A DNA stretch of 43,764 bases from Anaerolineae bacterium. Its GTDB lineage: Bacteria > Chloroflexota > Anaerolineae > Anaerolineales > Villigracilaceae. The stretch lies in assembly GCA_017303655.1 (NCBI GenBank), contig JAFLCE010000025.1, positions 1 to 43,764 on the forward strand, in the 5' to 3' direction. The translations under genes and the position numbers were made by a program. Positions 3,786-43,557 of this stretch are shown piece after piece. Each line of letters begins with the position of its first letter. The stretch's first letter is position 1. The notes under the pieces are model-generated. The model did no database searches. It worked only from the letters and a program-made list of their open reading frames with translations, and was not told the origin of the DNA.

Positions 3786-3823
3786 TAATAAAAAAGCGGC
3801 TCGTGTGAGCCGCTTTTTTATTA
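3786..3823. terminator. bidirectional terminator at the end of glyQS
   Basis: A perfect 17-base stem, TAATAAAAAAGCGGCTC (3786-3802) and its complement (3807-3823), closes a GTGT loop. The stem is rich in G+C at its top and flanked by A and T runs, so it can terminate on either strand. The glyQS stop codon (3821-3823) lies inside the stem. Confidence 0.85.
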
Positions 3824-6800
3824 GAACCCGTCGAGGTTGCTAAAGTCTGCGATGCCGTTTGAGAGGCTGGCAATACTTTGGAGCAAGCCAAGCCGATTTT
3901 CTTTCACTTTCTTATCCTCTGCCATCACCAGCACTTTATCGAAGAAGGCGTTGATCGATGGGATGAGTTTGACGACGATCTCCAAGAAATCATCGACCGT
4001 GGACGGTTGACCGCTGACCGCCTTTTGGATGGCGGTATATAAATCCTTTTCTTCTTTTTCTGCGAGAAGTTTCTCATCCACTTTGAAGGATTCTTTTTGA
4101 TCGCGGGTGATGCGGACGCAGCGAGCATAGCCCGGCAGGATCGTGGACCAGTCTGCGCGGCTCACCCATGCTGTGAGTTGCTTCACCGCCCGAGCAGATG
4201 CCGCCGGGTTAGCGGATTGTGCCGCCAGCACCGCTTCGACAACATCGTGTTTGTAGCCAGCATCCTTCAAAACCACTGACAAACGCCCACTAATGAATTC
4301 CAGAATCTGCTTCTGCGCTTCAGCTGTCACTTCAATGGGCTGAGTCTTGGCAGAGTGCTTGATCGCCTTGGCAAGGTCAAAATCCATGTCATGCTCAATG
4401 AGCGGTTGCACCAAGCCAATGGCAGCACGCCGCAGACCGAAGGGATCTTTCGCGCCAGTGGGAGCCAACCCCGCCGCAAACATACCGACAAGTGAGTCGA
4501 GTCTGTCTGTAATGGCGAGCGCCACACCAGCTTTGCTCTGTGGCACGGTTTGGTATTGCTCGGCAATGGCTTGTGCCACTTCAGGCGCTTCACCAGAACG
4601 CAGAGCATATTCGCCGCCGATGATGCCTTGCAGTGACGTCATCTCTGTGACCATCTGTGTGACCAGGTCGGCTTTGGAGAGGTAGACCGCGCGTGCCAAC
4701 GTCTTGATGAGCAACATGTCTTTGAAGCCGAGCAGACCGCCGATCTCTGCGCCGAGTTTAAGCATGCGGGCAGATTTATCCAGCATGGAGCCGAGCTTGG
4801 TGTGGAAGGTCAACTTGGCAAGCTGCGGGCGATAGTCTTCGAGCTTGAGTTTGACATCTTCGCGGACGAAGAAGTTGGCATCGGCGAAGCGCGCACCCAA
4901 AACGTGTTGATTGCCGTCGCGGACGATGTCAATGTGAATGTCGTCGCCGTTGCGGATGGCAATGAATTTTGCAAGTAAGGGCGACCCGCCAGGGTCTGAC
5001 GATACGCTCGATTGCGAAGACGCCTTGCCAGATGCATTACCCGTTTGACCATCTAGGGTCGCCCCTACGCGTTGAATCGGAAAATAACGCTGATGTTTCT
5101 TCATCACTGAGATCAACACATCACGCGGCAGGGTCAGGAATTCGGAATTGAATTCACCCATCACAGCCGTCGGCATTTCGATCAGGTTGGTGACTTCGTT
5201 GAGCAAACCATCTTCAATGATGGCTTCCCCACTGACCAAATGCGCGGCTTCGTTGACCTGTGCCAAGATGGCGGCTTTGCGTTCTTCTTTATCTAAAACG
5301 ATGCCTGCCTCGCGGATGGCGTCGAAATATTTATCGGCTGAAGTAATTTTGATTTCTGGAGAGTCGTAGGGGCGGAGTCCGCGAGAGATGTTGCTGCTTG
5401 TCACGCCAGCATATTCAAACGGAATGAGCATGTCACCGAGCAAGGCGACGTACCAGCGGATCGGACGGGAGAAGGCGACGCCAGAGTCGTTCCAGCGCAT
5501 GGACTTCTCGAACTTGATATCCGCGACCAGTTTCGGCAACGCTTCGGCAAGGACTTCGGGGGTGGGTCGTCCTTTTTGTTTGACAACAGCGAAGACGTAC
5601 TTACCTCCGCCTTCTTCGCGGATTTCCAAGTCTTTGGTATCGACGTTATTCTTCTTGGCAAAACCCATGCCCGCGGGCAAGGCGATGCCGTCTTTGTCGA
5701 AGGATTTATCGGCGGGGGGACCTTTGACGAGGTCTTCGCGGTCGGGCTGATTCGGGGAGAGAGAGGCTACTGAAAGGACGAGCCGCCTCGGCGTTGTAAA
5801 GATGCGGACGTCGCCATGAGTGAGATGAAGTTCCTTGAGGAGAGTCGGCACACGGGCAGATAAGGCTGCGTAGGCGGTATCGACGTCGTCTGCTGGAAGT
5901 TCTTCAACACCAATTTCCAAAAGGAAGTTGGCAGGTTGAAGGTTGGAAGGTTTGAACGTTGAAACCTGCGAACTTGTAACTTTCGAACCCGCATCTTTCA
6001 ACAACGGATACTCAAGATTCTTGCGCTGTTCTTCGTAGGAGGTGGCGACTTGACGAGCGAGTTCGCGCATGCGTCGGAAGAAGGCTTGACGTTCTGCCAC
6101 GCTGATGGCGCCGCGGGCGTCGAGGATGTTGAAGGTGTGCGACGATTTGAGGACGTAATCGTGCGCGGGGACGATGAGACCCTGTGCGAGACAGGCATCG
6201 GCTTCGGCGGAGAAAAGCTCGTACATCTGACGCGTGCGTTCGATGTCGGCGACTTCGTAATAATATTTGGAATGCTCGAGCTCTTCGCGGCGGAAAATTT
6301 CGCCGTAGGTGACGCCCGCGCCGAACTCTTCGTTCCAAATGCCTTTGGCGTTGTTGAGCGCGATGAGGATGCGTTCGAGCCCGTAAGTGATCTCAACCGA
6401 GACGGGGTTGAGCGCCACACCGCCCATCTGCTGGAAGTAAGTGAACTGGGTGATCTCTTGCCCGTCGAGCCAGACTTCCCAGCCCAAGCCCCAGGCGGCG
6501 ATGGCGGGTTGCTCCCAGTTATCTTCTACAAAGCGGATATCGTGCTGGCGCGGGTCGATGCCGAGGGCTTTGAGCGACTCGAGATACAACTCTTGCGGGT
6601 TGCCGGGGTCAGGCTTGAGAATCACCTGAAACTGGGTGTGCTTTTGCAAACGGTTGGGATTCTCGCCATAGCGCCCGTCATCGGGGCGCACAGACGGCTC
6701 GACGTAGGCGACGTTCCACGGTTCGGGTCCGAGCACGCGCAGGAAGGTGGCAGGGTTCATCGTCCCTGCACCCACCTGGGTGTAGTAGGGCTGTGTGATG

Positions 6801-6865
6801 AGGCATCCCTTGGATGCCCAGAAGTCTTGTAGTTTGAGGATTATTTCTTGAAAGGAGGAAGACAT
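3821..6865 (-). CDS. glyQS: glycyl-tRNA synthetase, fused alpha-beta chain
   Basis: The enzyme charges tRNA-Gly. The 1014-residue chain joins the alpha subunit (about 1-290, catalytic class II core, with the family start [18 protein letters not shown] and the [22 protein letters not shown] region) to the beta subunit (about 313-1014, starting [13 protein letters not shown]). Fused GlyQS is known in several bacteria. Two oddities stand out. The interdomain linker (residues about 288-314, bases 5921-6002) is encoded by a low-complexity GAAGGTTGGAAGG-type repeat. The beta subunit carries an extra segment of about 31 residues (about 599-630), between the HQRYFPIQ and FIAIRNGD blocks, that coincides with a REP-like palindrome. 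The frame stays open through both. The ATG at 6865 gives the usual N-terminus, though its ribosome site is weak. The gene ends in a strong terminator. Confidence 0.95.
4975..5068. repeat. REP-like palindromic element inside glyS
   Basis: Outer arms GTAAGGGCGACCC (4975-4987) and GGGTCGCCCCTAC (5056-5068) are inverted repeats with one mismatch in 13, enclosing about 68 bases. The 94-base element is read in frame as part of the beta subunit and encodes a Gly/Ser/Ala-rich loop. The arm ends (GTAAGGGCG/GTAGGGGCG) match those of the elements at 8771-8846 and 9075-9171, so these appear to be one dispersed family. Confidence 0.65.
5921..6002. repeat. low-complexity GGTTGAAGGTT repeat in the glyQS interdomain linker
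   Basis: On the plus strand the stretch consists of degenerate 7-9 base units such as GTTGGCAGGTTGAAGG, GTTGGAAGGTTTGAACG and TTGAAACC. It encodes the linker between the alpha and beta parts of glyQS. A closely similar stretch lies at 36727-36757 in an unrelated nucleotidyltransferase gene, also at a domain junction. Confidence 0.55.
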
Positions 6866-7036: not shown

Positions 7037-8731
7037 TTATTGTCCATCACTGCGAGCACAACGAAAGCCCAGATCGTCTAAGGCAGCCTTATGTGATTGG
7101 TTAAGGCGATTCCATGATATAGGGCTAAACCCATCATCATCCCAGGAAGCACCTCGAATGACTCGCCAGTCACTCGAATTTGGTCCTTGAGGATTTGATG
7201 GAGGTGAATTTTGATAATAGGTATCGCCATAAAAATCATTCACCCATTCCCAAACATTTCCTGCCATATCTAATGCGCCATAAATACTTGCACCTTTAGG
7301 ATATGTACCAACTGGTGTTGTATCGCCCACATTGCCACTGTAATTTAACAACTCGGTGTTGGGAGTCTCATTACCCCATGGGTAATCACGAGCGTCTGTG
7401 CCACGTGCTGCCTTCTCCCATTCAGCTTCAGTAGGCAAGCGGCGCTCAACCCACGAACAATAGGCAACAGCATCGTCTCGAGAAACATAAACAACGGGGT
7501 GGTTTGCATAACTGAGGTCTTCATAATGGGATGCATTGGATGGCTGTGTACAATGACCAGCTTCAACACATAATTTATACATGGCATTAGTTACTTCAGT
7601 TTGGTCAATCCAGAAAGCGTCAAGATATACTTGGTGAGCTGGTGATGAATAGACAAAAGAATCATCACCCATTGTAAATTCACCCGCTGGGACGAGCACC
7701 ATTGACACATCTTTGGCGTCCGTGATTTCGGTGGGCGAAGGCGTGTTGGAAGCAGCTGAAATTAAAGAGGCTGTTGAAACAACTTCTTTTGATGGTGTGG
7801 CAGTTGAAGCAGTTGAATTAACCTCCTTCATTAGTGATGGGATCCTAGTAGCTAAGAAAATTGCCAACAGTAAAAATATAATTGAAGCAAATCCAGCAAT
7901 ACGAGCTGCACTACTTTTAGATGACTTTGCCTTATTTGCCGTTACTTTATTATTATCATTAGACCTAAGGAGGTTTAGTGCAATTTTATTTATTCTTATT
8001 TTTTCTTGAAGCTCAAGTATTTTTTGCCGAATCTCCGAAACAAATGGATTGATATTTTCTATTTCAAGGTAAATTTCAAGTGCCTTTTCTAGCTCGCCAC
8101 TTTCTTCCAGGCTTCTTGCCTGCCTTTCATAAATCTGTAATCGCTTTTCTCTTTCTTCTTTTTCTACAATTTCACTTTCCTGTTTCTCGCGTAATTCTTT
8201 TTCTTTTCGTTCTTGTTCGGCAAGTTCAACAGCTTCGCGTTCTTTCTTTGCACGGACAAAATCTTCCTCTTCAATATTTTTCTTTGAAACCTCAACAATT
8301 GACCGTTCCAACTGCGAAGCACGGAACTTAAGCGCTTTCATCATCTTGGCATAGCCGGATTCGACCGTCAAATCCACCCATTGATAGCGGCTCAGGGTAA
8401 ATGGGACTTCACATTCATCAAACTTGACGGGAATCAGGAAAATCCGTCCCTCTGGCATTTCGAGGGCTTTATCCAAAGCAAATTTGATTTCCTTTTGGAT
8501 GTAACCTTCTTTATCTACTGAGTTTTTGGTCAAACAGATGATGATGGCATCCGAAGTTGCCAAGGCTTTGGGAATTTCAACTTGCCAGTCCTGCCCGCCT
8601 ACCAAATGTTCTTCGTCAAACCAAGGATTAATTCCCCGTCGTTTCAGGTAACGATAGAGTTCGCGGACTTTGGGTTTGTCCGTGGAGGCATGGCAGAGGA
8701 AGACTTTGAGAGGGCGTTTGGGTTGGGTCAT
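7037..8731 (-). CDS. TIR-coiled coil-membrane-FGE/sulfatase-modifying-factor-like protein
   Basis: The 564-residue chain has four parts. A TIR domain (about 8-135) shows FLCHASTD, the WFDEEHL and QDWQVEI blocks and a candidate NADase glutamate E81 in GYIQKEIKFAL. A charged Glu/Lys/Arg-rich coiled coil (about 150-205) is followed by one TPR-like hairpin (206-230). A membrane helix spans about 277-295. After a Ser/Thr linker comes an FGE/SUMF1-fold domain (about 342-562) with MVLVPAGEFTMG, DQTEVTNAMY, RLPTEAEWEKAARG, DMAGNVWEWV and FRCAR. The RGASW block lacks the cysteine of true formylglycine-generating enzymes, so it probably binds ligand rather than modifying sulfatases. TIR domains often cleave NAD in bacterial immunity. 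The gene is visibly more AT-rich than most neighbours. The ATG at 8731 has no clear ribosome site. The exact role is unknown. Confidence 0.85.
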   Translation of the reverse strand: MTQPKRPLKVFLCHASTDKPKVRELYRYLKRRGINPWFDEEHLVGGQDWQVEIPKALATSDAIIICLTKNSVDKEGYIQKEIKFALDKALEMPEGRIFLIPVKFDECEVPFTLSRYQWVDLTVESGYAKMMKALKFRASQLERSIVEVSKKNIEEEDFVRAKKEREAVELAEQERKEKELREKQESEIVEKEEREKRLQIYERQARSLEESGELEKALEIYLEIENINPFVSEIRQKILELQEKIRINKIALNLLRSNDNNKVTANKAKSSKSSAARIAGFASIIFLLLAIFLATRIPSLMKEVNSTASTATPSKEVVSTASLISAASNTPSPTEITDAKDVSMVLVPAGEFTMGDDSFVYSSPAHQVYLDAFWIDQTEVTNAMYKLCVEAGHCTQPSNASHYEDLSYANHPVVYVSRDDAVAYCSWVERRLPTEAEWEKAARGTDARDYPWGNETPNTELLNYSGNVGDTTPVGTYPKGASIYGALDMAGNVWEWVNDFYGDTYYQNSPPSNPQGPNSSDWRVIRGASWDDDGFSPISWNRLNQSHKAALDDLGFRCARSDGQ

Positions 8732-37234: not shown

Positions 37235-38413
37235 ATGCAGGAAATAAATTCAGTTCAACGACTCTCAAAACGTGTGGCGGGTTTGAAACCCAGCGGCATT
37301 CGAAAATTTTTCGACATTGCCGCGACGATGAAGGATGTGATCTCGCTTGGCATCGGCGAGCCCGATTTCACCACACCCAAACCTATTTTGGATGCGGGTA
37401 TTCGGTCGCTGCAAAACGGTGAGACGCATTACACCTCGAACTCTGGCAAGATGGAATTGCGCCAGGGGGTTGCCGACAATTTGAAGAAACTTTATAACGT
37501 GAAATACAACCCCGTTGATGAAATCATCGCCACTGTCGGTGTTTCTGAAGCGTTGTATCTCACGTTCACTGCTGTGCTCGAGCCGGGTGATGAAGTCATC
37601 ATCCCCACTCCATGTTTTGTTTCGTATCAAGCGGAAGTCATCCTTGCGGGCGGTGTGCCCATTGAGATTCCCGGGCGGCTTGAGAATAACTTTACCATTG
37701 ACCCGAATGACATCCGCAAAGCGATTACGCCGCGCACAAAGATCATTTTTATTGGTTATCCATCGAACCCCACCGGCGCAGTCGCTCCGCGTGAGGTGAT
37801 GATTGAGATCGGCAAGATCGCCGAAGAATTCGACCTGCTCGTCGTTTCGGATGAAATTTACGATCGCCTCGTTTATGACTTTGAGCATGTCTGCTTCCCA
37901 GCTTTGAGTGATAGCCTGAGAGAGCGCACCGTGTTACTTGGCGGCTTCTCGAAAGATTATGCGATGACCGGCTGGCGCATCGGCTATGCCTGTGCCCCTG
38001 CGGACATCATCGCTGGCATGGTGCGTATTCATCAATACACCATCATGTCCGCGCCAACCACTGCTCAAGACGCCGCCATCGAAGCCTTGAAGACCGGCGA
38101 ACCCTATGTGGCAGAAATGGTCGCGGAATATGACCGCCGCCGTCGCTTATTGGTGAGTGGATTGAACCGCCTCGGTCTCTCGACCTTTGAGCCGAAAGGT
38201 GCCTTCTATACCTTTCCCAACATCCGAGCCTCCGGCATGGACGATGAAACTTTCGCCGAAAAATTATTGCGTGAAGAAAGTGTTGCCGTAGTTCCAGGCA
38301 ACGCCTTCGGACCCGGCGGTGAGGGATTTGTGCGTATGTGCTATGCCACTTCCTACGAACAGATCGAAGAAGCCCTGCGCCGTATGGAAAAGTTCATGAG
38401 CAGGCATGGATAA
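37235..38413 (+). CDS. class I PLP-dependent aminotransferase (aspartate aminotransferase-like)
   Basis: The 392-residue enzyme transfers amino groups between amino and keto acids. Landmarks are GIGEPDFTTP near the start, N178 in YPSNPTGA, D206/Y209 in VSDEIYDRL, the PLP lysine K240 in GGFSKDYAMTGWRIGYA, and a late substrate arginine in FVRMCYATS. It belongs to the fold type I, AspC/PatA-like subgroup, and the exact substrate is uncertain. It closes the run started by the nucleotidyltransferase and ends in a strong terminator. Confidence 0.9.
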   Translation: MQEINSVQRLSKRVAGLKPSGIRKFFDIAATMKDVISLGIGEPDFTTPKPILDAGIRSLQNGETHYTSNSGKMELRQGVADNLKKLYNVKYNPVDEIIATVGVSEALYLTFTAVLEPGDEVIIPTPCFVSYQAEVILAGGVPIEIPGRLENNFTIDPNDIRKAITPRTKIIFIGYPSNPTGAVAPREVMIEIGKIAEEFDLLVVSDEIYDRLVYDFEHVCFPALSDSLRERTVLLGGFSKDYAMTGWRIGYACAPADIIAGMVRIHQYTIMSAPTTAQDAAIEALKTGEPYVAEMVAEYDRRRRLLVSGLNRLGLSTFEPKGAFYTFPNIRASGMDDETFAEKLLREESVAVVPGNAFGPGGEGFVRMCYATSYEQIEEALRRMEKFMSRHG

Positions 38414-38907: not shown

Positions 38908-39285
38908 ATGACAGACAAAAAGGCAGTATCCCCTGAAGGCGCAACGATTTTAGGAGCCTATTCCCCCGGGCTGATCAGCGGCGGATTTTTATTCATCTCC
39001 GGTCAGGTCGGTCGCGCCCCCGATGGAACATTAGGGGCAACCATTGAAGAACAAGCCAAGCAGACCATCGAGAATATGGGCGCCATCCTTCGCGCCGCAG
39101 GTTGTGACTATAAAGACGTCGTCAAAGCCACGGTATACATCACCAAATCTGAATACTTCCTGCCATTCAATACGATCTACTCCGAATATTTCCCCGAACC
39201 GCGCCCGGCTCGCGCCACGGTTCTTGCTCAATTAGTAGACCCTGCCCTGCTGATCGAAATCGAAGCCATCGCCAAACTGCCATAA
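38908..39285 (+). CDS. RidA (YjgF/YER057c/UK114) family protein
   Basis: RidA proteins hydrolyse reactive enamines and imines made by PLP enzymes. The 125-residue length fits. Family blocks are ISGGFLFISGQVG, EEQAKQTIENMGAIL, VVKATVYIT, the catalytic arginine R102 in PRPARATV and the terminal LIEIEAIAKL. The retained arginine suggests true imine deaminase activity. A good AAGGAGA ribosome site precedes the ATG. Its nearness to an aminotransferase gene fits the role but they are separated by a convergent gene. Confidence 0.92.
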   Translation: MTDKKAVSPEGATILGAYSPGLISGGFLFISGQVGRAPDGTLGATIEEQAKQTIENMGAILRAAGCDYKDVVKATVYITKSEYFLPFNTIYSEYFPEPRPARATVLAQLVDPALLIEIEAIAKLP

Positions 39286-39362: not shown

Positions 39363-40211
39363 ATGAATCTTCCCTACATCTACATTCTTCAATCTCATTC
39401 ATCACATGTCATCCCAGACTTACAAAAACGCTACGAGAATCGCTATCTTGTACAAGGCGCAGGCTCCGGCGCGGATGTGCTCTCGTCCCTGCAAAAGCAT
39501 CGCGAGAATAACGAAGATGTCGCGCTTCTTCTTGTAGACCAATCCCTGCCTGACATGCCCGGTACGGACTTTCTCGCCAAAGCCGCCAAATTCTTCCCTG
39601 AGGCACGCGAAGTTTTGTTCGCGCAGGCAAAGGATACTGAGTCCGCCATCACCGCCATCAATCAATTGGGCATTCATTATTATCTCGTCCAGCCCTGGCA
39701 GGCAGCCTATGCCGCGAAGCTCGACACTCTGCTCGAAGATTGGCGTGCGGCGATCCAATTGCCTTATATGTACGTCAAAGGCATCATGGACACACACATG
39801 GCACGCATCCGCGAGGACTCGAACTTGCATGTTGCGGCTGAGATCGTCGCCCATTCCGGCGTCAGCGATTTGATGGTCGTGAATAACAACGGCGTTTTTG
39901 TCGGTGTGCTCTCCGAAGGCGACATTCTCCGTGCGGCATTGCCCGATATTGACGAGATCGTCGAAGAAGGCGGGACGCTCGAATCAGCTTATCAAGTTTT
40001 CCTGCGTCGCGGTGCGGAACTTTCAGATCGCCCCATCGCTCCGCTCATCATCCGCGAACCGATCACACTGCAACCAGAAGATCACGTTGCCAAAGCCACA
40101 GCCATTCTCATCAGCAAACAGATTCGCTTGCTGCCTGTTGTAAAAGACGGACGTTTGCTCGGCACCGTCTCTCGCGCCAACATCTGTGAAGCCGTCGTCG
40201 GGACTCTCTAA
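39363..40211 (+). CDS. pseudo-receiver domain protein with paired CBS domains
   Basis: The 282-residue protein has an N-terminal receiver-like fold (about 1-125). It keeps an aspartate at the phosphorylation position (D59 in LLVDQSLPDMPG), but the acidic metal-binding pair is missing (ILQSHSS in place of a DD motif) and the conserved lysine is a glutamine (Q110 in YYLVQPWQ). It is probably a pseudo-receiver. Two CBS motifs follow (about 138-195 and 225-282), shown by SDLMVVNNNGVFVGVLSEGD and IRLLPVVKDGRLLGTVSR; such pairs bind adenosyl ligands. The IDO-like fusion gene begins one base after its stop codon, so this protein likely regulates or senses for that enzyme (inference). Confidence 0.8.
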   Translation: MNLPYIYILQSHSSHVIPDLQKRYENRYLVQGAGSGADVLSSLQKHRENNEDVALLLVDQSLPDMPGTDFLAKAAKFFPEAREVLFAQAKDTESAITAINQLGIHYYLVQPWQAAYAAKLDTLLEDWRAAIQLPYMYVKGIMDTHMARIREDSNLHVAAEIVAHSGVSDLMVVNNNGVFVGVLSEGDILRAALPDIDEIVEEGGTLESAYQVFLRRGAELSDRPIAPLIIREPITLQPEDHVAKATAILISKQIRLLPVVKDGRLLGTVSRANICEAVVGTL

Positions 40212-40212
40212 T

Positions 40213-43200
40213 ATGACCCAAATGATCCCCACTCGTCGCGTCATCATTGAAGCCGAAGCGACCAACCGCAAACTCGGTCATGAAAACTTGGGCTTCCTTT
40301 CTCTTTCGCATGGCTTCATGCCCATCGAAATGCCGCGCCTTGCCTTGGCAAAGTCACATCAAATTTGGGATGAAGTCGCAGCAGAGTTACCAGAACTCTT
40401 CCGCACTCTCGGCTTGCGTCGCCGTTTGGATGAAATGCCAATTCTCGATGCGAGTGAAGCGTCACTACCTGATGGTGACCTCTATCGCGCCGCATCCATC
40501 CTCGGCATTTTCGCGCATACCTATCATTACGTCGAACCGAAACCGTATCACGCCGTTCCAGATTCTGTCCTCATCCCTTGGGCAGAGGTCAGCCGCCGCT
40601 TGCATCGCCCTGCCCCACATTTATCTATTATCGATCTTAACATTTACAACTGGCGTTTGGTCGATCTCAACAAACCCGTTGTGATGGAAAACATGCAATT
40701 ATTGATTCCCATCGTGGGCAATGGCGATGAATGTCGTTTTCAATCCACACCGAATGAGATTGTCGCACGCTTCACGCCGTTGATCGAGATGGTCATCCGC
40801 GCGCAGGAAGCTGTAGTAGCCGATGACCGCCTCGCACTTAAACGCGAGTTGACTCTCCTCTCAGACGCATTCAACGACCTGACCTACTCTTCTTTTATGA
40901 AGGTCAACCCCAACGCCTATCACCCACTCTATGTGGACCCAGTCGTTTGGGGCAAGACCGTCGCGCCGATTGCAACTCCTTATCAAACAGGCACATCTAT
41001 CCCCGGACCCAGCGGCACCGCCATCCCAACCTTCACTCTCATGGACATTTTCTTTGGGCGCGGAACCTATGGCACAAGCATCGGTCACGAAACCGACCGC
41101 ATCCGCGCATGGTTCCCGCCGCATTGGCAAGCCTTCCTAAATGCCGCCGAAGAGATCTCCGTTCCAAAATATGTCCGCACTGTCGACGATGCCGAACTGA
41201 CCGGCTCCTTCCAACAAGCCATGGACTCTTACTCCGGCGAGACGGGCCTGCTCGGTCGTCATCGTCTTAAAGCCTACGGCTTCCTCGACCTTTCTTTCAA
41301 AGCAGGTCGCAGCCGTACCCTCGGTGGTTTCGATGGCGGTTTCGAAGACCGTCTTTGGGATCGCATGGACGATGAACTCGAAAAGGCACGTCAGGAACGT
41401 TATGCAAAAACGCCTGCCACTTGTCATTTCGTGCGCGTCAAAAAAGTGCAGCCGCTTACATCCGGCGGCGTCATGCCAACCAACCGCGTTGTGTTGGATA
41501 CGACCGGCACCGGGTTGAGATATCAGCCCGGGGACCGTTGCGCAATTCTCCCGGAGAATGATCCGGAGCTTGTCCAAAAAACGTTGGATGCCTTACACGC
41601 CACCGGCGACGAGCCCATCCCGCTTAATGCTGTTTGGCGCACCGCTGTTCAACTGCGTGATGGTCATCAAACCTCGGTCATTCTTTCGTTGCGCACCTTG
41701 CTCACTTTCGGTCGCATTCGTCCCATCTCGCGTTACATCGCCAAGATTTTGTATGAAGTGACGCACAACGAAACGTTGCATCGCATTCTCGAAGCGCGCG
41801 CCGAAGACCAATGGGAATTGTGGGACTTGCTCAACGTGCTCAGCAAAGGCGGCTTCAACCCCAAGCGTTTATGGAAAGCCACCCTCGGCGAACGCGAACA
41901 CATCACGCGCATCGTGCCGCCCGAAACCTTTCGCACCTATTCGATCTCGTCCATTCAAGCGGATGACGCCGCGAACGAACTTCACCTCACCATTGGCGGA
42001 CTCATCTACCAGACTCCCGACACCGACGTGTCGCGCGCCTCACTCCGCGCCGGAACCTGCTCCGCCTACCTCAGCCGACTCGGCTCTGCAAGTGATTCGC
42101 ATCCGCGCCGCGTTTCCATCAAAGTGATTCATCCGCCGCGCTTCAGCCTCCCTACAGATATCAACAAGCCTGTCGTCATGTTCGCGGGCGGTTCGGGCAT
42201 CGCTCCCTTCCGTAGCATGTTGCAAGCGCGGACAGGCGGTGAGAATTGGTTGTTCTTCGGCACCCGTTCCCGCGCTGAACTTTATTATGAAAACGAATGG
42301 GAAGCACTGGTTGCGTCTGGTCAATTAAATCTGCAAGCCGCATTCTCACAAGAAGATCTTCAACTCAAAGTGAGCAAAGGAAAATTTTCTTTCGCCAAAG
42401 GCAAGCGCGGACATATCGACTCAGTAATGCTCACACCAGAGATGAAAGACAAACTATGGGAGTTGATCCAAGGAGACGCATTCTTCTACATCTGCGGGCG
42501 CACCGGCTTCGCCAAAACCGTCATGGACACGATGCAAAGCATCATCAAAGAACGCGTGGGCGAAGAAAATGGACGCGAGCTATTCTATCGCCTCGTTGGG
42601 GAAGACCGCTACTTACAAGAAGTCTTCACCACCTACGGCGGCGCGCAATTCGAGCAGGAAAATATCTACCCCGCTTCTGAAGTCGTCCTGCGCAACAGCC
42701 CCGAAGATGGACATTGGTTAATTGTTAACGGACGCGTCTATGATGTGAGCGAGTTTGCCCACCTGCACGCGGGCGGATTGAAAATCATCCAATCGTATGC
42801 AGGCATGGATGCGACTCTCTCTTATAAAAAGATCCAGCACGATGTGAACCCCGAAGTGGATTCACTGCTGGGCATGTATCAACTTGGCGCGGTGCGGCGT
42901 TTGAATTTTGGCTCGGGCGGCGGCATTGCCATCACCCCGCGCGGACTTCAATTCGTCTCACTGACCGAGTTGTATCAAACCTGGGTACGCTTCCTGTATA
43001 CCGTCGTCGAAATGGAGAATGCCCTCATCAACGATTACAGCATCCGTAATGAACAGGTCACTCACGACGAAGTCCGCGGCAAACCGCGCTCATCGTTATA
43101 CCGCACTCAAGTGCTGCTCAGCACGCATGAGCGTTTCCTACGCGAATATCTCGCCAAAGCCAGCGGACGTCCGCTTGAGTATCTTTGGTCTCTTACCAGT

Positions 43201-43557
43201 GGGCTGTGCTCCAACCAACAAGACCACCGTTGGATAAGTGGACAGATCGCGGCAATCGAAGCCGAGTCCGCCTCTCAATATGCCAAATCCATTGGTAAGG
43301 AAACACTAGAAGTTCTCGACACCTTAAGCACCGATGAATTACCTAGGCTTGAACGTCTCACCGACACCCTCGCTCATGCAGACCGCGAGTTCCTCAAGCA
43401 AATGAAGTTGACCTTGCGAAAAGGCGTACAGGTCTTTGAGAAGTATGAAGGCAACACTCTCAATCATGGAAAAGAAGAATTGCTTGAGATCGCTCAGTCC
43501 CTGCCACAGGTTTTAGTGAACTATTATGAAGAATTGAAACCGGTTCTGGCAAAGTAA
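40213..43557 (+). CDS. IDO-like heme domain fused to FAD/NADPH reductase, cytochrome b5 and helical domain
   Basis: The ATG at 40213 gives 1114 residues; a start codon further upstream would overlap the preceding gene. Residues about 1-400 match the IDO heme superfamily: LIPWAEVSRRLHRPAPHLS, then DLNIYNW (about 120-147), KVNPNAY (230-236), GPSGTAIPTFTLMDIFFG (265-282), FPPHWQAFL (301-309) and GRHRLKAYGFL with H350 as proximal heme ligand. Residues about 402-810 match the sulfite-reductase-type reductase: RTYSISS with R574 for FAD, GTCSAYLSRL (614-623), MFAGGSGIAPFRSML for NADPH, FFGTRSRAELYYENEW and FYICGRTGFAKTV. No flavodoxin domain is present. A cytochrome b5 domain (about 820-897) follows, with heme ligands H852 (HAGG) and H876, exactly 24 apart. 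Residues about 905-1114 are helical and unrecognised. NADPH, FAD, b5 heme and IDO-type heme could pass electrons in one chain (inference). The substrate is unknown. A strong terminator follows. Confidence 0.8.
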   Translation: MTQMIPTRRVIIEAEATNRKLGHENLGFLSLSHGFMPIEMPRLALAKSHQIWDEVAAELPELFRTLGLRRRLDEMPILDASEASLPDGDLYRAASILGIFAHTYHYVEPKPYHAVPDSVLIPWAEVSRRLHRPAPHLSIIDLNIYNWRLVDLNKPVVMENMQLLIPIVGNGDECRFQSTPNEIVARFTPLIEMVIRAQEAVVADDRLALKRELTLLSDAFNDLTYSSFMKVNPNAYHPLYVDPVVWGKTVAPIATPYQTGTSIPGPSGTAIPTFTLMDIFFGRGTYGTSIGHETDRIRAWFPPHWQAFLNAAEEISVPKYVRTVDDAELTGSFQQAMDSYSGETGLLGRHRLKAYGFLDLSFKAGRSRTLGGFDGGFEDRLWDRMDDELEKARQERYAKTPATCHFVRVKKVQPLTSGGVMPTNRVVLDTTGTGLRYQPGDRCAILPENDPELVQKTLDALHATGDEPIPLNAVWRTAVQLRDGHQTSVILSLRTLLTFGRIRPISRYIAKILYEVTHNETLHRILEARAEDQWELWDLLNVLSKGGFNPKRLWKATLGEREHITRIVPPETFRTYSISSIQADDAANELHLTIGGLIYQTPDTDVSRASLRAGTCSAYLSRLGSASDSHPRRVSIKVIHPPRFSLPTDINKPVVMFAGGSGIAPFRSMLQARTGGENWLFFGTRSRAELYYENEWEALVASGQLNLQAAFSQEDLQLKVSKGKFSFAKGKRGHIDSVMLTPEMKDKLWELIQGDAFFYICGRTGFAKTVMDTMQSIIKERVGEENGRELFYRLVGEDRYLQEVFTTYGGAQFEQENIYPASEVVLRNSPEDGHWLIVNGRVYDVSEFAHLHAGGLKIIQSYAGMDATLSYKKIQHDVNPEVDSLLGMYQLGAVRRLNFGSGGGIAITPRGLQFVSLTELYQTWVRFLYTVVEMENALINDYSIRNEQVTHDEVRGKPRSSLYRTQVLLSTHERFLREYLAKASGRPLEYLWSLTSGLCSNQQDHRWISGQIAAIEAESASQYAKSIGKETLEVLDTLSTDELPRLERLTDTLAHADREFLKQMKLTLRKGVQVFEKYEGNTLNHGKEELLEIAQSLPQVLVNYYEELKPVLAK

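Follow-up and report, generated by a model that had tools for sequence, protein, structure and literature searches.

A candidate one-component heme oxygenase of the IDO branch, fused to its own reductase and cytochrome b5, in an Anaerolineae bacterium and its relatives

Introduction

CYP102-type self-sufficient P450s hold an oxygenase and a CPR-type reductase in one chain, and in Ncb5or and nitrate reductase a cytochrome b5 is fused to an FAD/NAD(P) module. Here we describe a fusion gene of an Anaerolineae bacterium (phylum Chloroflexota; assembly GCA_017303655.1, contig JAFLCE010000025.1), located in a stretch of 43,764 nucleotides that was analysed as a whole and is called the window below. 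Its product joins an IDO-like domain, an FAD/NADPH reductase, a cytochrome b5 and a helical C-terminal domain, in that order. Judging from sequence comparisons, we put the chances about even that this protein is a one-component, NADPH-driven, His-ligated heme oxygenase of the IDO branch, perhaps a monooxygenase, under CBS/FHA control, and its substrate is probably something other than tryptophan.

His-ligated heme-dependent aromatic oxygenases include TDO, MarE, SfmD, TyrH and PrnB (PMC11791213), which the fusion protein resembles at the superfamily level. Dioxygenation by IDO takes one priming electron, while monooxygenation calls for re-reduction at every turnover (PMC12921851); MarE needs a reductant to favor monooxygenation, and ascorbate steers it in that direction (PMC12312684). 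In published assays of MarE and PrnB the reductants were supplied from outside (PMC12312684, PMC11791213); the fusion protein brings its own reductase, and its sequence match is to IDO. For human IDO1, CPR with or without b5 is reported to act as reductant in vitro, while the in vivo donor is called unclear in the same source (PMC13142367). Among the matches listed in openly licensed PMC full-text literature, no described IDO-reductase-b5 fusion was found.

Results

One open frame joins an IDO-like domain to a reductase and a cytochrome b5

The fusion gene (40213..43557, + strand) begins with ATG and runs as a single open frame of 1,114 codons. Four Pfam modules were found over their curated cut-offs in the 1,114-residue product: IDO (PF01231) at residues 30-338 (profile positions 8-340 of 412, E 7.5e-27, 94.6 bits against a cut-off of 26), FAD_binding_1 at residues 405-619 (E 5.4e-11), NAD_binding_1 at residues 656-770 (E 3.6e-12) and Cyt-b5 at residues 823-892 (E 2.3e-12). 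Beyond these, Pfam at E up to 10 gave no family in the chain, with no match to flavodoxin, p450, FAD_binding_6 or Mo-domain. The original prediction, read from the sequence without database searches, that a single frame combines an IDO-superfamily domain, a reductase of the sulfite-reductase type and a b5 is therefore borne out. The significant profile match to IDO also speaks against the refutation named beforehand, a lack of any IDO-superfamily match in residues 1-400. The PrnB-like family PF08933, listed there among the profiles to search, was rejected, as it did not match the fusion protein at E up to 10. A search of the host genome with PF08933 gave no match but carries no weight, because its control matched nowhere.

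The IDO-like domain spans residues 28-400 (40294..41412, +). When these residues were compared with PDB sequences, IDO1 and IDO2 were matched with a best E of 1.7e-10, or 5.6e-26 when a 10-row profile was used, and 25 of the 27 distinct PDB sequences found at E up to 10 were IDO1 or IDO2. The reductase, at approximately residues 401-812 (41413..42648, +), is of the CysJ/CPR type and lacks a flavodoxin domain. The best NCBIfam matches of residues 392-805 were CysJ-type sulfite reductase flavoproteins, below their own cut-offs (128 bits for CysJ, against an equivalog cut-off of 668). All 14 NCBIfam models listed for this protein scored below threshold. Among the best 60 of 200 PDB sequence matches to the whole chain, the reductase part matched CysJ, CPR, NOS, FNR and related reductases, and residues 819-895 matched cytochrome b5. 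The 50 Foldseek matches listed for a low-confidence full-length model were all reductases or reductase-containing chains and none was an IDO; these would lend weak support to the reductase assignment.

The cytochrome b5 domain (residues 817-896; 42661..42900, +) was delimited from Pfam, PDB and an ortholog alignment. Its heme histidines, H852 (42766-42768, +) and H876 (42838-42840, +), originally described as spaced exactly as in known b5 domains, are 24 residues apart and are invariant in 10/10 aligned orthologs.

This layout combines features of several described systems. The FAD_binding_1 and NADP-binding modules are shared with CPR/CysJ diflavin reductases, but the fusion lacks the FMN flavodoxin domain and instead carries a b5 C-terminal to the reductase. 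Unlike in Ncb5or and nitrate reductase, the reductase is of the FAD_binding_1 type. CYP102-type P450s offer an analogy for how the chain would work, although the fusion has an IDO domain with a putative His ligand in place of the P450. The self-sufficient layout that had been proposed, with its own reductase and with b5 replacing flavodoxin, is thus supported, and the accompanying name, heme oxygenase, is best taken to mean a heme-dependent oxygenase; nothing was found that points to a heme-degrading HO. As a separate observation, a 1,389-residue frame in genome G016 (L080 1518-5684, -) reads as b5-b5-P450-FMN-FAD, a CYP102-like self-sufficient P450 with tandem b5 domains; these labels come from reading the sequence and from b5/reductase matches.

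The IDO-like domain retains the putative heme ligand and lacks two motifs of standalone IDOs

The roles of His346, Asp274, Phe226 and Arg231 in IDO1 have been described (PMC6072487), with Arg231 contacting the substrate carboxylate (PMC12921851), and a loop influences which product MarE and TDO form (PMC12312684). We compared the corresponding regions in a MAFFT alignment of 14 family members and 12 standalone bacterial IDOs, with a 13th standalone protein, L068, read by eye. The first standalone set (n=11) was chosen by a motif with the His and G[TL]GG; L068 and L072, which it omitted, were read separately and are included in the final counts, and a partial match, L075 (39-residue frame), was excluded.

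His350 (41260..41262, +), the putative proximal heme ligand, falls in a column that is His in 14/14 members and 13/13 standalone IDOs. The Phe176 column is Phe in 14/14 members and 12/12 standalones, and the Asp278 column is Asp in 14/14 and 11/12, respectively. We take these three residues to correspond to His346, Phe163 and Asp274 of IDO1. F301 and H350 are 49 residues apart, the same distance that the original prediction had given for its two conserved blocks.

By comparison, the motif [VMIL]RP[YF], whose Arg is taken as the equivalent of IDO1 Arg231, was found in 0/14 members versus 13/13 standalone IDOs. No Arg occurs in residues 226-267 of the window protein, and the aligned segment is also Arg-free in L032, L033, L034 and G570. 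The GTGG loop, near the C-terminus in tryptophan-type IDOs, is absent from all 14 members, which carry TLGG, TTGA, TLSG, TASG, TIAG or TVTG at this site; the standalone proteins have GTGG in 11/13 cases and GTSG in one, with the remaining sequence cut before the loop. We dropped Asp242 as a plain replacement of the canonical Arg, because the aligners differ in register and standalone IDOs also have Asp in this column of the MAFFT alignment. The fusion protein therefore differs from human IDO1 and the standalone bacterial IDOs in these two motifs, as well as in its reductase, b5, C-terminal domain and CBS partner. Taken together, a whole fused electron chain and the loss of both the Arg motif and the GTGG loop suggest stoichiometric electron use and monooxygenation of a substrate other than free L-tryptophan.

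Host genomes encode other routes for tryptophan breakdown

A different reading is that the protein is a genuine tryptophan/indoleamine dioxygenase, in which the reductase and b5 serve only to prime the heme and to rescue its ferrous state, as proposed for b5 and human IDO1. This would fit the IDO match over cut-off, the retention of His350, Phe176 and Asp278, and the in vitro support of IDO1 by CPR with or without b5 (PMC13142367). In addition, a class I/II aminotransferase encoded on the same strand at 37235-38413, upstream of the RidA and CBS-pair genes described below, could in principle act on kynurenine. However, the Arg231-equivalent motif and the GTGG loop are missing throughout the family, and the host genomes have other tryptophan genes. 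A TDO match was present in 9/12 host genomes (E 5.0e-80 in the window's own), and kynureninase scored over cut-off in 6/12, again including the window's own; kynureninase matches below cut-off were not counted because the family also matches in 10/14 control genomes. G400 and G548, among these 12, lacked a TDO match and had no kynureninase over cut-off. Genome G401, which carries fusion L033, also has a separate canonical standalone IDO (L062 5540-6664, +), and neither kynureninase nor TDO was found among the scanned genes of the window, which are part of its gene set. With TDO and kynureninase present, these hosts can probably degrade tryptophan in the ordinary way without the fusion. We consider a tryptophan dioxygenase quite unlikely, and the part of the original prediction that implied IDO-like action on tryptophan is correspondingly weakened.

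The fusion is a collinear and patchily distributed family under purifying selection

Two short peptide patterns derived from the IDO domain, searched across 84,980 species genomes, gave 122 matches, nine of them in fusion relatives; this number is a lower bound, as the scan missed later finds. All nine align collinearly with the window protein, over residues 1-5 to 1108-1113, at 39-73% identity; three are Chloroflexota records (HGW-Chloroflexi-6, an Anaerolineae metagenome-assembled genome and Ktedonospora formicarum) and six are actinomycetes. Of the fusions found separately, that of G548 is collinear over residues 2-1108, and that of G570 matches residues 6-1004 (tblastn) and the C-terminal profile. 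Several genes appear under more than one identifier (L061/L055, L060/L056/L057, L062/L042/L073, L033/L002 and L034/L003).

The full fusion was present in 3/400 genomes of the window's phylum, its own included, and in 3/396 genomes drawn from the phylum of the actinomycete G403. Within 200 genomes of G403's family, frames of 1,242-1,291 residues with an IDO match were present in 19, including four loci already named. Among 47 genomes of the class of Ktedonospora, one had the fusion and two others a standalone IDO. Within the window's genus, the 10 listed members other than the host lacked a match, so the fusion is patchy in its distribution. Plasmid records gave 88 matches, none covering 80% of the query, and the 10 listed of the 88 match the reductase part only. 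A role in anti-phage defence was also considered and rejected: the fusion had no PADLOC match, and the CBS protein gave a weak one (3.4e-4) that we disregarded as meaningless.

A tree was built from the IDO domains of 12 fusions together with 11 standalone bacterial IDOs. A branch supported at 100/100 separated all the fusion domains from the standalone proteins; the tree program flagged S_L062, F_G570 and S_L060 as long branches. Within the fusions, the window and L032, both from Chloroflexota, clustered with G548, from the actinobacterial draw (support 99/99), which suggests transfer between phyla.

A fourth of the 400 genomes of the window's phylum, G084, has only a b5-C-terminus frame near a contig end (L041 5909-6892, -) that is 80% identical there to the fusion of Ktedonospora. 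It does not appear to be a fusion truncated where the contig stops, because a stop lies 12 codons before its GTG start and the last ~120 contig bases, read by eye on that strand, hold no reductase tail. It may be a remnant, a rearrangement or a separate b5-C-terminus gene, and was left out of the fusion count.

Comparison of the window with its nearest relative, L032, gave proportions of nonsynonymous differences (pN) of 0.08-0.26 against proportions of synonymous differences (pS) of 0.63-0.78 in each of five parts of the gene, with a pN of 0.15 and a pS of 0.78 for the IDO part. Identity to L032 was 86% for b5, 77% for IDO, 73% for FNR and 65% for the C-terminus. These values indicate purifying selection on the IDO part, and collinearity in nine further loci together with the low pN relative to pS argues that the open frame is not a chance fusion. 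These data also bear on whether the IDO fold could be inactive or decoupled, acting as a scaffold while the reductase-b5 pair serves another protein. The active-site changes described above could be read in this way, as could the failure of AlphaFold to give a confident domain arrangement (predicted template modeling score, pTM, 0.36). Nevertheless, the selected IDO part is more similar to L032 than are the FNR part and the C-terminus, if less so than b5, and an IDO-b5 paralog in genome G972 retains the IDO domain while lacking the reductase. We therefore regard a scaffold role as very improbable.

A CBS-pair gene, FHA-like forms and a helical C-terminal domain accompany the family

A gene for a 282-residue CBS-pair protein (39363..40211, +) lies 1 nt upstream of the fusion. 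Its product matches CBS at 5.5e-19 (Pfam) and has a weak REC-like N-terminus (Response_reg 4.7e-6, under its own cut-off). The CBS gene is upstream in 13/13 testable loci, that is, those with upstream DNA to inspect: the window, 9/9 relatives, G548, G570 and G999. The gap to the fusion is ~360 bases in L033. The CBS proteins of L032 and G548 match that of the window into its longer, REC-like N-terminus. No CBS gene was found within 19.5 kb around each of two divergent paralogs.

In the window protein, residues 1-27 (40213..40293, +) precede the IDO match; in 7/12 fusions (L034-L040) an FHA-like stretch precedes this point, and Pfam confirmed FHA in the two fusions scanned. The CBS match ends within 24 bases (G548) and 98 bases (G570) of the IDO match, too close for an FHA domain to fit between them in these two.

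Further upstream lies a RidA/YjgF gene (38908..39285, +; Ribonuc_L-PSP 2.3e-29), which precedes the CBS gene in 3/12 loci (window, L032 and G548), with too little upstream DNA in L033 and L038. An AMP-binding ligase gene lies downstream of the fusion in G570. Elsewhere in the window, a TIR domain is joined to a formylglycine-generating-enzyme/sulfatase-modifying domain (7037-8731, -), and the alpha and beta subunits of glycyl-tRNA synthetase form a single chain of 1,014 residues (3821-6865, -).

The C-terminal domain (residues 897-1114; 42901..43554, +) has no significant Pfam or PDB fold match. Folded alone with nine relatives, residues 893-1114 gave a confident helical model with one beta hairpin (mean predicted local distance difference test, pLDDT, 86.9; pTM 0.85). 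This model had no Foldseek match in the PDB at E 0.001 (best 0.12), and in Pfam the window copy had no match at E up to 10, with weak matches only for other copies (best 0.049). We also asked whether the domain occurs as a stand-alone protein; its profile matched in three of 296 actinobacterial genomes, each time inside a fusion gene. The original prediction had overlooked this domain, along with the FHA-like extensions, the CBS gene upstream and the altered substrate site.

Such an association could mean that the protein is a regulated redox or O2/NO sensor or scavenger, in which NADPH electrons cycle the IDO-like heme and the chain either signals via the C-terminal domain and CBS/FHA or detoxifies NO/O2 like a flavohemoglobin. 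The invariable CBS partner in the testable loci, the FHA-like N-termini, a C-terminal domain that lacks known matches and in 296 actinobacterial genomes was seen only with the fusion family, and the loss of the substrate-Arg motif are all consistent with this explanation. It nonetheless seems unlikely to us, given that Pfam detects no kinase- or cyclase-type output domain in the chain and that two paralogs lie in or beside specialized-metabolism genes, a better fit for an enzyme.

Two paralogs lie in or beside specialized-metabolism genes

Genome G972 encodes a 660-residue IDO-b5 protein with no reductase match and a short C-terminus (L088 8176-10158, -), in addition to a copy in a 1,242-residue frame. 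On the same strand as the IDO-b5 gene, a LuxR-type regulator gene follows 9 bases downstream and a type I polyketide synthase (PKS) gene after a further 81 bases. The PKS has ketosynthase (KS), acyltransferase (AT), dehydratase (DH), ketoreductase (KR) and carrier domains, and genes for a P450, a glycosyltransferase and a partial condensation-domain protein are nearby. In genome G927 (region L089 229-10501), a second fusion of 1,132 residues faces an ebo-type cluster. Cut-offs were exceeded there by EboE, an EboA domain and a prenyltransferase of the SCO3242 family, and an inositol-phosphate synthase is also encoded. The ebo cluster has been tied to export of scytonemin intermediates (PMC6282210). 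These settings would suit a small-molecule tailoring enzyme, and the IDO-b5/PKS locus of G972 is a possible route to the substrate of the family.

Discussion

In the one-component oxygenase that we propose, the chain would bind both heme and FAD. NADPH would reduce the FAD in the CysJ/CPR-type module, and the FAD would hand electrons to the heme of the fused b5, which in turn would either hold the IDO-like heme ferrous or re-reduce it at each turnover. The C-terminal domain and the CBS partner, together with FHA in many relatives, would probably regulate the enzyme or bind a partner or substrate.

Several observations weigh against this proposal. The full-length AlphaFold model was poor (mean pLDDT 62.2, pTM 0.36) and gave no confident domain arrangement, so that it does not inform on contact between b5 and the IDO heme, and the role of His350 as ligand rests on the alignment. 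The Pfam IDO match stops at profile position 340 of 412, hhalign places the canonical His 4 residues beyond His350, and three aligners disagree on the register around both Arg231 and His346. Within the segment aligned to window residues 226-267, at least one Arg is present at another spacing in 9/14 members, and Lys248, conserved in 13/14, could take the place of Arg231. For the related enzyme PrnB, neither b5 nor CPR is reported to have yielded product (PMC11791213). Moreover, no biosynthetic cluster was seen around the window gene and the CBS-linked loci, whose neighbors were scanned in part, and the CBS and FHA associations point to signaling as much as to metabolism.

With these points in mind, we offer a more far-reaching version of the one-component oxygenase as a tentative suggestion, with the odds against it. 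The family would comprise natural NADPH-driven, His-heme monooxygenases that use the IDO fold, parallel P450 BM3 in function with b5 in place of flavodoxin, and convert a new substrate into a signal or specialized metabolite. They would be switched by the CBS partner, perhaps through adenine nucleotides, often with a phosphothreonine-reading FHA domain, and would end in a previously unseen C-terminal fold.

The fusion of a CPR-type reductase and a b5 to an IDO-like domain makes the b5 route of electron delivery testable on one polypeptide, and the protein may be of use as a biocatalyst running on NADPH and O2 alone. The same chain is a natural test of whether supplied electrons convert the IDO fold from a dioxygenase to a monooxygenase. 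The family as a whole also introduces a domain that is so far unclassified, and its conserved CBS/FHA association would link heme oxygenation to signaling.

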